DNA of 64,000 nucleotides from Pseudomonadota bacterium. GTDB lineage: Bacteria > Bdellovibrionota > UBA1018 > CAIMNF01. Shown here in pieces: positions 28,564 to 34,295 of the stretch. The stretch covers positions 1 through 64,000 of the forward strand of contig JAIXWV010000022.1 of assembly GCA_027491115.1 (NCBI GenBank), written 5' to 3'. Below the pieces are notes generated by a model, which saw only the letters and a list, made by a program, of their open reading frames with translations, searched no databases and was not told the origin of the DNA. Numbering within the stretch: the stretch's first letter is position 1; every line of letters begins with the position of its first letter. A program made the position numbers and the translations under genes.

Positions 28564-28613
28564 AGTTTTTCTGCGGATTTACCGATTAGACTTTGACGAG
28601 GGTACACCATTCT

Positions 28614-30596
28614 ATGAGCGAATCAGTCCTCAAAAAATTCGGAAAGTATTTCCTGCTCGATCGGATCGGAGAGGGCGGGATGGCCGAGATTTTCCGTGCC
28701 CGCTTGGCAACCGCCGATGCGAATGGCCGATTCATTGTGATCAAGCGAATCCAAGGCGCCTACAGCAATAATCAGGAGTTCGTTCAGATGTTTCGCGCCG
28801 AGGTCCAGGTGACGATGCGATTCTCGCATCCGAATATCGTGCAGTTGTATGAGTCCGGAGAAGAGTCCGGTCAGCATTACATTGCAATGGAGCTGGTGGA
28901 GGGTCGGAACCTCAGACAGGTCCTATCGAAGATTTCCCAGAAGCAACAACGTATCCCCATCCCTGCGTCTTGTTTTGTCATCGAGCAGGCCGCTGCGGGA
29001 TTGAATTATGCACACCAATTCAAGGATCGAATCACCGGAGAGCCACTGAATCTGGTTCACCGTGACGTGAGTCCACAGAACATCCTCGTTTCTTACGATG
29101 GGAACATCAAAGTAATTGACTTCGGCATCGCCAAGGCAGCGACCAATGGGGAAGCGACACGTGCCGGTGTGATCAAAGGGAAACTGAGTTACCTTTCCCC
29201 TGAACAAGTAATGGGTGAGGTACTTGACGGAAGGTCAGATATTTTTGCCTTGGGCATTGTGCTTTGGGAGTTGCTCACCGGTAAGCGCCTCTTTGTTGCC
29301 GATGGAGATAACGAGTTCCAGGTTCTGAAGATGATCGAGAGCTGCACCTCTTATGTGAAGCCTCCTTCGACCTACAATCCTGAAATTTCGAAGGATCTCG
29401 ATGCAGTGGTGATGCAAGCCCTCGCCCGCGATCCAAAAAAACGGTTTCAGAATGGCGAAGAGATGGGGCGTGCCCTCAGAAAGTTGCTGGCTGTCGAGTA
29501 CTCCGATTTCGGTCCATCGGATCTGTCCATTTTCGTTAAGAAACTTTTCCATGATTTGATCGTTGAGGATCGAAAACAACTTCAGCAATTGAACTCACGT
29601 GCGGACGAGCTGATCGCACTAGGTGCCCCGGTGCCTGTGAAGACGACACCGTCTTCCGAGGCAAAAACCGATTCCGGTGTACCTACCAAGGATGCTCCAA
29701 GGGAACAAACCCGGGTCAGTAATCTGGGAGACAAGTTTGACAAGTCCCAGATCACATCTGCAGATCGTGTGGAAATTGCGCGACAACCTCAGAATCAAAT
29801 GCGGGTACCTTCGACCAACCGGGGAAATACGCAAACCGGAATCCGCTCAAATCCACAGATGAACAAAGGGACGGGAACGGGTATTCGCAGGGCTGTGCCT
29901 CAGGTGGAGCCTGTTCCGAGTACGTCGGGTTCAGGCGGAGGAATAAAGATTCTCGCTGGAGCCGCGATGTTGGCGATCGCTGGTTTTTTTGCCTTTGAAC
30001 AGTTGAATCCTGTTGATCGTAAGCCTGATTCGGTTTCGATGGAAGATCCTACGCCCGCGGTACAGAATCCGTTCACCAGCAAGGCCAATTTCAGGGTCCG
30101 TATTTTTCCGGATGGCGACCTTTCTAAGACTCGAATCACAGTGAACTCGGCTCCGTTCGATCTCAATAAAGGGTTTATCAATCTCAACATCGATGAGCCT
30201 GTAGAACTGGTCATTGAACGACAGGGCTTCGTGACATACCGAAAAGAATTCACAGTGAAGCAGGGTGATTTGAATTCTTCACGAGAGTTCGTGATGGATG
30301 TGAAGCTTGATCCGATGGTATACGGAACTTTCACCTTATCGACCCAACCTGAGATCGCAGATGTCAGTATTGTCAATTTAGACCAAGGGACATCGGGGAA
30401 TTCCTCCAAGCCATTGAGCTTGAAGACTCCGGTTTACCAGGAGAAGCTGGCTGTCGGTCATTATCGCGTGACGGTTCGAAACGAAACGTTGAATGTTGAG
30501 AAGTCCTTCCAGATCGAAATTAAAGAGGGCGATCGTTTGGTCAAGAATGGAGTTGCGCTCGAGCCCGTGAGAAGTCCTGCAGGAAACCGCCGTTAG
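28614..30596 (+). CDS. Membrane-anchored Ser/Thr protein kinase (Hanks type)
   Basis: 660 residues. Kinase domain about 12-290: glycine loop RIGEGGMAEIFRA, VIKRI lysine, catalytic HRDVSPQNIL, DFGIAKA and a KGKLSYLSPEQ activation segment. A polar Pro/Thr/Asn-rich linker follows, then one membrane helix (IKILAGAAMLAIAGFFAF, about residue 450), then two beta-rich repeats outside the membrane that resemble PEGA-type sensory domains. ATG 28614 is preferred over TTG 28593 because GAGGG lies between them. It converges on the response regulator, with 4 bases of overlap. The ligand is unknown. Confidence 0.9.
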   Translation: MSESVLKKFGKYFLLDRIGEGGMAEIFRARLATADANGRFIVIKRIQGAYSNNQEFVQMFRAEVQVTMRFSHPNIVQLYESGEESGQHYIAMELVEGRNLRQVLSKISQKQQRIPIPASCFVIEQAAAGLNYAHQFKDRITGEPLNLVHRDVSPQNILVSYDGNIKVIDFGIAKAATNGEATRAGVIKGKLSYLSPEQVMGEVLDGRSDIFALGIVLWELLTGKRLFVADGDNEFQVLKMIESCTSYVKPPSTYNPEISKDLDAVVMQALARDPKKRFQNGEEMGRALRKLLAVEYSDFGPSDLSIFVKKLFHDLIVEDRKQLQQLNSRADELIALGAPVPVKTTPSSEAKTDSGVPTKDAPREQTRVSNLGDKFDKSQITSADRVEIARQPQNQMRVPSTNRGNTQTGIRSNPQMNKGTGTGIRRAVPQVEPVPSTSGSGGGIKILAGAAMLAIAGFFAFEQLNPVDRKPDSVSMEDPTPAVQNPFTSKANFRVRIFPDGDLSKTRITVNSAPFDLNKGFINLNIDEPVELVIERQGFVTYRKEFTVKQGDLNSSREFVMDVKLDPMVYGTFTLSTQPEIADVSIVNLDQGTSGNSSKPLSLKTPVYQEKLAVGHYRVTVRNETLNVEKSFQIEIKEGDRLVKNGVALEPVRSPAGNRR

Positions 30597-31267
30597 GGTA
30601 GGTACTTGTAGCCGATTCCGTAGACGCTCTGGATGTGGACATTCATTTCTGGGATTTTTTTCCTCAGTGAACGGATGTGCACATCGATGGTTCTGTCGGT
30701 GGTGGCGGGGGCAGAATCTTTCCAGATTTCTCTCATGATCTCCGAACGTGAAACGACCACGCCATTACGCGAAGCGAGTAGTCGTAGAATGTCATATTCA
30801 GTGAGGGTGAGAGGAACAGGTTGTTCATCGTAATTCGCAGTGCGGTTGATCGGGTCGATCTCGAGTTTTCCTACCTTCACTTTGGGTGAAACGGAAACAC
30901 GCGAACGCAATAAGCGTGATTTGATACGGGTCATGAGTTCACGGTGATCGAATGGTTTGGGAAGGTAGTCCTCTGCACCCATCGAAAGTCCATAGGTGAT
31001 CTCAGCCGTTGTGTTCTTGCCTGATAGGAAGATGACGGGAATGGATTGGGTATCAGGTTCGGACTTCAGTCTTTTACAGGTGTCGTAGCCGTTCAACACA
31101 GGCATGATCACGTCAAGAACGATCAGGTCTGGTTGTTGGGCCCTAGCTATGGCAATCCCATCTAGGCCATTACCTGCGACCAAGACATCAAACTCTCGTC
31201 CGAGCATGACCTGCAGGAATCTGCGGGTGTCGGAGTTATCCTCGATGACCAGGATCTTCTGTCGCAT
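30593..31267 (-). CDS. OmpR/PhoB-family response regulator
   Basis: 224 residues. Receiver domain 1-120: acidic pair EDN, phospho-acceptor in LIVLDVIMPVLNGYD, Thr/Ser in FLSGKN and Lys in LPKPFDHREL. The C-terminal winged helix (PLTLTEYDILRLLASRNGVVVSRSEIMREIW, RTIDVHIRSLRKKI, IQSVYGIGYKYLP) binds DNA. No histidine kinase is adjacent; the neighbours are a STAS-like protein and a 50-residue protein in the same operon. Its ATG lies inside that small gene, with GAAAGG as ribosome site. Confidence 0.94.
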   Translation of the reverse strand: MRQKILVIEDNSDTRRFLQVMLGREFDVLVAGNGLDGIAIARAQQPDLIVLDVIMPVLNGYDTCKRLKSEPDTQSIPVIFLSGKNTTAEITYGLSMGAEDYLPKPFDHRELMTRIKSRLLRSRVSVSPKVKVGKLEIDPINRTANYDEQPVPLTLTEYDILRLLASRNGVVVSRSEIMREIWKDSAPATTDRTIDVHIRSLRKKIPEMNVHIQSVYGIGYKYLP

Positions 31268-31388
31268 CTGAGAGCCTTTCGGCGATCGAGGAAAGTCCAG
31301 AGAGCAGCAGTTCGCTCTCCATGGGATCGAGTGGTCTGTTCAGTCCGAGAATCCGGGAGAGTTTTTGCAGTAAATCCTGATCCATCAT
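31236..31388 (-). CDS. 50-residue small protein between STAS-like and response-regulator genes
   Basis: ATG 31388 overlaps the stop of the preceding gene (ATGA), and the end overlaps the response-regulator gene by 32 bases in another frame. The peptide is Leu-rich and helical (DQDLLQKLSRILGL, then ESELLLSGLSSIAERL) with a polar end. GGAG lies 12 bases upstream. Exact coupling to both neighbours supports a real gene filling what would otherwise be an odd 117-base gap. There is no known family. Confidence 0.55.
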   Translation of the reverse strand: MMDQDLLQKLSRILGLNRPLDPMESELLLSGLSSIAERLSDATEDPGHRG

Positions 31389-31876
31389 TTGTTGCGTTCG
31401 CTCCAAAGCTTTTTAGCAAAGCTGCCGAACCATGGGCTGGTTTCACCGAGGTGGTCGATCCGCTTCAATTCGTCTTCGACTGTTTGTCTGAGATTCCGGT
31501 TTTCCTCAATCAGTCGCTCAGCATCCATGCGCATTCTTTCACGCAAGTCGATTCGGGATTGAAGAACATTGACCTGCTCCTCAAGTGCGGATTCGATGAG
31601 TTTCCTCCGGATTTCTTCTAGCTCAGAGGTGTTTCTCGCGCATTTGAAGTGTAGTCCCTTCGAAGAGGCGAGCGACTTGGCTTCTTCGATCAATCCATCC
31701 AAAGAGGCGAAGGGGGTATTTGTTTCGATACCGCCCAAGTCAAGAATGGTGAAAAGAGGTGCGGTTTCGAAGAATCTGAAAAGGCTTGATCTGAGGGTTT
31801 CGAGATCCTCGATAGAAATCGGGCCTTGGATCCGGAACTCATTGATGCCATTCCTGGTCTGAAAGAGGATGTTCAT
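31385..31876 (-). CDS. STAS-like protein with C-terminal coiled coil
   Basis: 163 residues. Residues about 10-90 follow the STAS/anti-anti-sigma pattern: IQGPISIEDLETLRSSLFRFF, then TILDLGGIETNTPFASLDGLIEEAKSLASSKGLHF, alternating strands and helices. The usual phosphorylated Ser/Thr position is not certain. Residues 95-145 form a charged coiled coil (EEQVNVLQSRIDLRERMRM). It heads an operon with the small protein and the response regulator and is divergent from an outer-membrane protein followed by a SpoIIE-type phosphatase. This suggests a partner-switching role, which is inference. Confidence 0.6.
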   Translation of the reverse strand: MNILFQTRNGINEFRIQGPISIEDLETLRSSLFRFFETAPLFTILDLGGIETNTPFASLDGLIEEAKSLASSKGLHFKCARNTSELEEIRRKLIESALEEQVNVLQSRIDLRERMRMDAERLIEENRNLRQTVEDELKRIDHLGETSPWFGSFAKKLWSERNK

Positions 31877-33152: not shown

Positions 33153-34295
33153 ATGACTAAGCCAAAATTTCATTTCAGCATTCTCGGTCGAGATCGCATG
33201 ACCGAGCAACTCTGGATCGAAGAACTCAGGACGCTTCAGCGCGGTCTGGGAGGAGCTTTGGGGGGAGCGCCGACGGGGGCCGGCGAGGTACTTTCCAATC
33301 TGATTCTCATTGATGCTTCCAGGCCAGGTTGGCAGCAATGGCTGGAGAGTGTAGATCCAGCCGGAAAATCCGTTATTCTGGTATTGGACGAGGAGGCTGG
33401 TTTGCCGGCAGGAACTGACATCCAACAGGTTTCCGATCTGTTGGTTCATCCTTTCCGGATTCCCGGATTGTTGAGTGTCGTCAAACATCATCATGAAAGG
33501 ATCCGAGCTGATGAGCTCCTCGCCGAAGCGGTCGCGGCCGAACGCGATCTTGTGGATGCGAATGCCACACTCGAAAGAATTTTGCAGGCAAAGACCCCCA
33601 AAAGATATTCGGGAATCAAGGGACTTCAGATCATGTCGAAGCATCTCTCGGGATTAAAACCGGGCGGGGATTACTTCGATGTTTTCGAGTCCGATAAAAA
33701 GGATTTCGTAAATCTGCTGTTGGTGGATTCCTCAAGTTACGGAGTATCTGCTGCGATTCTCGGCATGATCCTATCTTGTTCCGCGCGAATGGCAAACGAT
33801 CATCAAGTCACCACTTCACAATGGGTCCGCAACATTTATGAGGAGCTCCGCCTCACTCTCGGTGACCAGGGGCACTTCAGCATGTTTTTCGGTCGATTGA
33901 ATCGGCGTGATTTCAGCCTCCACTATCAATTGTTTGGATCGGTCGAATGCTTTGTGGTGGATCAAACGGGCACCTCCAAGAAGCTCGATCGGAGTGGCGA
34001 GGCAATTAGCAACCGTCATGTTCCTTCTGAGTCGGAAGAGAAGATCTTGAAGCTCCAGCCCAAAGACCGCATGGTGCTTTTGTCTGACGGATTTGTGAAG
34101 GGTATCGGTGGGGAATTTCAATTGGATCGGGTATTCCGAGAAAGGCTCGAACGGGAGCCATTCGCTCTCGTGAACGAGTTGGCATTCCTCATCAAGTCTC
34201 GTTTGAACGAAGGAGAGACCTTCCCGGGAGAGGACTGTTCCGCCATCGTCATCGACGTCGAGAAACGAGTGTTACGACTCGCCCCTACGGGTTGA
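33153..34295 (+). CDS. SpoIIE/RsbU-type PP2C phosphatase with N-terminal receiver-like domain
   Basis: 380 residues. Residues 1-115 look like a receiver domain without its acidic pocket (LSNLILIDAS at the acceptor strand, VILVLDEEAG, LLVHPF). A short helix leads to the SpoIIE domain: LKPGGDYFDVFE, NLLLVDSSSYGVSAAILGMIL, DRMVLLSDGFVKG and GEDCSAIVIDV, keeping the metal-binding Asp positions, with S-S-S-Y in place of the usual V-S-G-H. It would dephosphorylate a STAS-type protein; a candidate lies at 31385-31876. The last 11 bases overlap mscS. Confidence 0.8.
   Translation: MTKPKFHFSILGRDRMTEQLWIEELRTLQRGLGGALGGAPTGAGEVLSNLILIDASRPGWQQWLESVDPAGKSVILVLDEEAGLPAGTDIQQVSDLLVHPFRIPGLLSVVKHHHERIRADELLAEAVAAERDLVDANATLERILQAKTPKRYSGIKGLQIMSKHLSGLKPGGDYFDVFESDKKDFVNLLLVDSSSYGVSAAILGMILSCSARMANDHQVTTSQWVRNIYEELRLTLGDQGHFSMFFGRLNRRDFSLHYQLFGSVECFVVDQTGTSKKLDRSGEAISNRHVPSESEEKILKLQPKDRMVLLSDGFVKGIGGEFQLDRVFRERLEREPFALVNELAFLIKSRLNEGETFPGEDCSAIVIDVEKRVLRLAPTG

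Follow-up and report, generated by a model that had tools for sequence, protein, structure and literature searches.

Sda, MgrB and the DUF1127 proteins, of about 45-50 amino acids, are small proteins associated with two-component systems, and Sda is a helical hairpin. Sensor kinases are known to be bound by small proteins of <50 amino acids (PMC12501420), and MgrB is membrane-bound (PMC8404706). Short translationally coupled ORFs and uORFs of bacteria have been reviewed (PMC12548453), and combine an ATGA start/stop overlap with a position just before the downstream gene. The partner-switching proteins RsbV, SpoIIAA and RsbS are of the STAS fold.

The locus described here has points of likeness to each of these. 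A 50-codon ORF is joined by ATGA to a STAS-like gene and stands just before a response regulator gene, as in the coupled short ORFs. Its product resembles Sda, MgrB and DUF1127 in length, in predicted helical structure and in its association with a two-component protein, and its upstream neighbor has a predicted STAS fold in common with the partner-switching proteins. Annotation routinely drops genes of about 50 codons. Here, the DNA by itself is enough to detect a small overlapping gene, and equally diverged genomes that have or lack the ORF at this junction provide an internal control.

Position and anatomy of the small ORF

The window, that is, the whole stretch of 64,000 nucleotides analyzed, is part of a 2.55-Mb metagenome-assembled genome of an uncultured member of the Bdellovibrionales (G000, locus L001), which was compared with 11 relatives from the same genus. 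The preliminary description had placed a 50-residue gene between a STAS-like gene and a response regulator gene, with exact overlaps on both sides. Its coordinates and both overlaps proved exact when re-read from the sequence; the strand, which had not been stated, is minus (Table 1). The stop codon of the STAS-like gene, TGA, is at 31387-31385, and A-T-G-A is common to this stop and to the small-ORF ATG at 31388. At the other end, the TAA of the small ORF lies 32 nt within the response regulator gene, in a different frame.

Table 1. Features of the STAS-regulator locus, in window coordinates
Feature	Position	Strand	Remarks
Ser/Thr protein kinase gene	28593-30596	plus	
OmpR/PhoB-type response regulator gene, 224 aa	30593..31267	minus	Pfam Response_reg 1.8e-25, Trans_reg_C 5.5e-22
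Two-frame overlap, 32 nt, small ORF 3' end and response regulator gene	31236..31267	minus	
Small ORF	31236..31388	minus	50 codons and TAA; 50-aa product MMDQDLLQKLSRILGLNRPLDPMESELLLSGLSSIAERLSDATEDPGHRG
GAAAGG	31275..31280	minus	candidate Shine-Dalgarno of the regulator, within the small ORF, as read from the sequence
ATGA, STAS-like gene stop and small-ORF start	31385..31388	minus	same layout in L002, L003 and L008
STAS-like gene, 163 aa	31385..31876	minus	STAS-type domain, residues 1-80, then 64-residue helix and conserved LWSE end
LWSE codons	31385-31410	minus	contain GGAG
GGAG	31401..31404	minus	candidate Shine-Dalgarno, 12 nt before small-ORF ATG, read from the sequence
SpoIIE-type phosphatase gene	33153-34295	plus	

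Taken in this genome alone, the small ORF is weak evidence of a gene, since a given frame is open in 39% of random 117-nt stretches of the 64-kb window. ATGA-overlap starts were also seen for other short ORFs in the window. The open frame of the small ORF becomes significant because it is conserved in relatives. Its translation would be demonstrated by the detection of, for instance, the peptide ILGLNRPLDPMESELLLSGLSSIAER.

The junction across the genus

The full 50-amino-acid ORF occurs at the STAS-regulator junction in three genomes, G000, G001 (L002) and G007 (L003). The frame, length, start and stop are the same in L002 and L003, with 0 indels and 74-80% identity over the full length. At the junction of G010 (L008) there is a 48-amino-acid ORF, flanked by ATGA on either side. 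In G003 (L009, with the junction on G003:C227), a seven-codon ORF encoding MREPHSS exactly bridges the STAS and regulator genes, also with ATGA at both ends, and is perhaps what an internal deletion has left of the small gene. Six relatives have no small ORF: the regulator ATG directly overlaps the STAS stop in G002, G004, G005, G009 and G011, and the STAS stop directly overlaps a TTG start of the regulator in G008. The remaining junction, that of G006, is interrupted by the end of a contig. Since 6 of the 11 relatives do without it, the operon cannot require the small ORF. These states, from a full ORF through a seven-codon ORF to none, form a natural series suited to studying how small genes enter and leave a coupled operon.

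A start/stop overlap is present at this junction in all genomes of the genus in which the junction can be read. The four genomes with a full-length ORF all have the ATGA start overlap, and at the 3' end three have the 32-nt overlap and L008 has ATGA. The GGAG sequence also precedes the downstream start in the relatives that encode LWSE, at a spacing of 6-12 nt. Both in the window and in these relatives, GGAG is contained in the codons for the LWSE C-terminus of the STAS-like protein, where constraint may come from both the protein and the RNA.

A profile search of 58 genomes of the class found no convincing homologues beyond the four junction copies. The comparison set is made up of three close orthologues, including the copy in the window, and one distant homologue, that of L008. 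The L008 ORF is collinear with the three close copies and aligns without gaps over 33-38 residues, with PL, LL, L and A positions in common. Its mean alignment score was matched by 1 of 5000 shuffles, but a profile of the three near-identical close sequences scores it at only 4.9 bits. Because both synteny and pairwise alignment support homology, the 48-amino-acid ORF is probably homologous to the small ORF.

In the phylogenetic tree, G010 was placed apart from the clade of the three close genomes, with low support, and the AU test gave a borderline rejection (P 0.05) of the split joining G010 with these three. The distribution of the small gene could have been caused by a single gain, by ancient presence and several losses, or by transfer. 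The SecA of G010 is split over contigs C4 and C14 (L154 and L155), with identities of 88% and 74-78%, perhaps because the assembly is broken there or the bin is mixed.

Selection on the small protein

It had been suggested that the gene is real and easily missed by length cut-offs, and that relatives should show an intact frame and an excess of synonymous over nonsynonymous change outside the overlap. The two close ORF-carrying relatives, L002 and L003, have neither frameshifts nor stop codons, and the protein shows detectable selection. The dN/dS values of the non-overlapping part are 0.38, 0.10 and 0.11 in the three pairs among the three close copies, and the variable columns outside the overlap are distributed 9/9/22 over codon positions 1/2/3. 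When the same substitutions were relocated at random to sites with the same base, 16-19 amino-acid differences were expected, against the 13, 9 and 9 observed. As few differences were found in 0-2 of 20000 replicates for pairs 1-3 and 2-3 (P <=1e-4), but this placement test gave only P ~0.06 for pair 1-2; the pairs are not independent in either test. Both neighbors have lower dN/dS values than the small ORF (0.02-0.03 for the regulator and, where defined, 0.03-0.08 for the STAS gene). These results show that the amino-acid sequence of the small ORF is under purifying selection.

The 32 bases of the overlap are invariant in the three close genomes, and the first variable base is just past the small-ORF stop. 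Among regulator codons 1-10, nine keep their residue and could have changed synonymously; all nine are identical in the ORF-bearing trio, versus 26% of such codons elsewhere in the gene. In the ORF-less trio L005, L006 and L007, which is equally divergent (26% elsewhere), only one of eight such codons is identical. The constraint on the overlap is therefore confined to genomes having the small ORF and is not a general trait of the regulator 5' end. By itself, the conservation of the overlap fits either selection on the peptide or another clade-specific nucleotide constraint; combined with the dN/dS values upstream of it, selection on the peptide is the simplest reading. On this sequence evidence, the small ORF is very probably a real protein-coding gene that is specific to its lineage.

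The neighboring genes

The STAS-like protein matches the Pfam STAS family with an E value of 0.014 and 15.6 bits, below the cut-off of 22.6 bits. Its AlphaFold2 model has a pLDDT of 87, and the best Foldseek match to this model is RsbV (E 1.1e-4), an anti-sigma factor antagonist, and others of this kind follow, with TM1442, RsbS and SpoIIAA also matched (E 1e-4 to 3e-3). As judged by the model and Foldseek, the upstream protein is predicted to have a STAS fold. All 12 genomes of the genus have it, whereas the rest of the 369 genomes searched from the phylum do not, and a plasmid search returned no match to it.

Genes for a Ser/Thr protein kinase and a SpoIIE-type phosphatase, both on the plus strand, flank the STAS-regulator operon, as in partner-switching circuits, and suggest that such a circuit may exist here. 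No histidine kinase was evident among the neighboring genes inspected.

Predicted structure and family searches

AlphaFold2 modeled the 50-amino-acid product as a two-helix hairpin, with helices at residues 4-14 and 22-43 and a pLDDT of 83. The last ten residues, which are encoded by the overlap, are less certain (pLDDT 62). Of the amphipathic, leucine-rich pattern reported earlier for the peptide, the leucine-rich helices are real, and the amphipathicity is only partly above that of shuffled sequences. In two of the sequences, helix 1 was equaled by 33-58 of 5000 shuffles, and helix 2 was indistinguishable from shuffles.

A Foldseek search with the hairpin model found no similar solved structure, a sequence search of the PDB found nothing significant, and NCBIfam and PHROGs searches with the small protein gave nothing meaningful. 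By these searches and the model, the small protein appears to belong to no known family. We considered and rejected membership in DUF4404 (Pfam PF14357), to which the window protein has a weak likeness in leucine pattern, restricted to residues 4-44. The match has an E value of 0.068 and 14.3 bits against a cut-off of 27 bits, the two orthologues have no match, and a search for the family in G000 did not recover the small gene.

Proposed function and alternative explanations

The explanation that we favor, and to which we give about even credence, is that the small ORF is a real gene in the middle of a three-gene operon with coupled translation, and that its hairpin product binds and modulates one of its neighbors. 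The operon would encode, in order, a STAS-domain coiled-coil protein, the 50-amino-acid protein and the OmpR-type regulator. Ribosomes finishing the STAS gene would restart at the common ATGA and make the 50-amino-acid protein, and ribosomes from the small ORF would then feed the regulator start, producing the three proteins in a fixed ratio. Since the LWSE codons hold GGAG 6-12 nt before the next start, one ribosome-binding site could serve the small ORF where it is present and the regulator where it is not. Coupled translation of the three genes is most likely, and agrees with the layout of the junction, with its start/stop overlaps in all readable genomes. The binding step is the weaker part of the proposal: the hairpin, presumed soluble, would most likely act on the long coiled coil of the STAS-domain protein or on the receiver domain of the regulator.

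The small ORF might instead be only a relay that carries ribosomes across the spacer between the STAS stop and the start of the regulator, the peptide itself being irrelevant. Such a role would agree with the same start/stop overlaps and with ATGA at both ends of the L008 small ORF and of the MREPHSS ORF of L009, and the review of translational coupling (PMC12548453) describes such relay ORFs. However, a relay would need no more than an open frame, whereas selection on residues is evident from the dN/dS values (0.10-0.38) and from the placement test, and six relatives couple the STAS and regulator genes directly without a relay. We regard this explanation as unlikely.

Equally unlikely, in our view, is that the hairpin is a connector or inhibitor whose target is either the receiver domain of the regulator or a histidine kinase encoded elsewhere, by analogy with the action of Sda, MgrB and DUF1127 on kinases. 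The size, the helical model and the place beside the regulator are in keeping with such a function, as are the documented small proteins that bind kinases (PMC12501420), and an unlinked partner kinase is possible because no histidine kinase is evident among the inspected neighbors. Searches by sequence and by fold, however, gave the small protein no match to a family of this sort.

A conserved RNA hairpin that hides the regulator start, with the ORF incidental to it, is very improbable. In L001 and L002 the regulator start lies between the arms TCCTCGAT and ATCGAGGA, and the folding z-scores are -1.5 and -2.1, but the hairpin is not formed in L003 (z -0.1) or L008 (z +2.4), and for this reason it is a poor alternative explanation of the conserved overlap. 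Of the 45 predicted pairs, a single one has changed on both sides and still pairs, Rfam gave no match, and the hairpin would leave the codon pattern upstream of it unexplained. Less probable still is a chance open frame in the spacer, which, although about 39% probable for a 117-nt stretch, is contradicted by the dN/dS values, the placement test, the overlap-codon test and the collinear ORF of L008.

Comparison with known systems

Returning to the favored reading of a selected protein in a coupled operon, we propose, tentatively, that the gene may represent an undescribed family of helical hairpins of about 50 amino acids, restricted to one genus of Bdellovibrionales. Its members would be an optional third component between the STAS coiled-coil protein and an orphan OmpR-type regulator, cleanly gained or lost, with the operon coupled either way. 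As far as the evidence goes, the small gene is not a new kind of system.

The small protein has no sequence or structure match to Sda, MgrB or DUF1127, the last of which is a different family. Unlike these proteins, it is encoded inside a regulator operon by way of overlapping reading frames, and any partner is putative. The STAS-like protein differs from RsbV, SpoIIAA and RsbS in its added 64-residue helix, in having no conserved serine, by inspection, at the usual phosphorylation position, and in its Pfam STAS score below the cut-off. Unlike the short coupled ORFs and uORFs reviewed in PMC12548453, the small ORF is internal to an operon, overlaps its downstream gene by 32 nt and encodes a peptide that is itself under selection.
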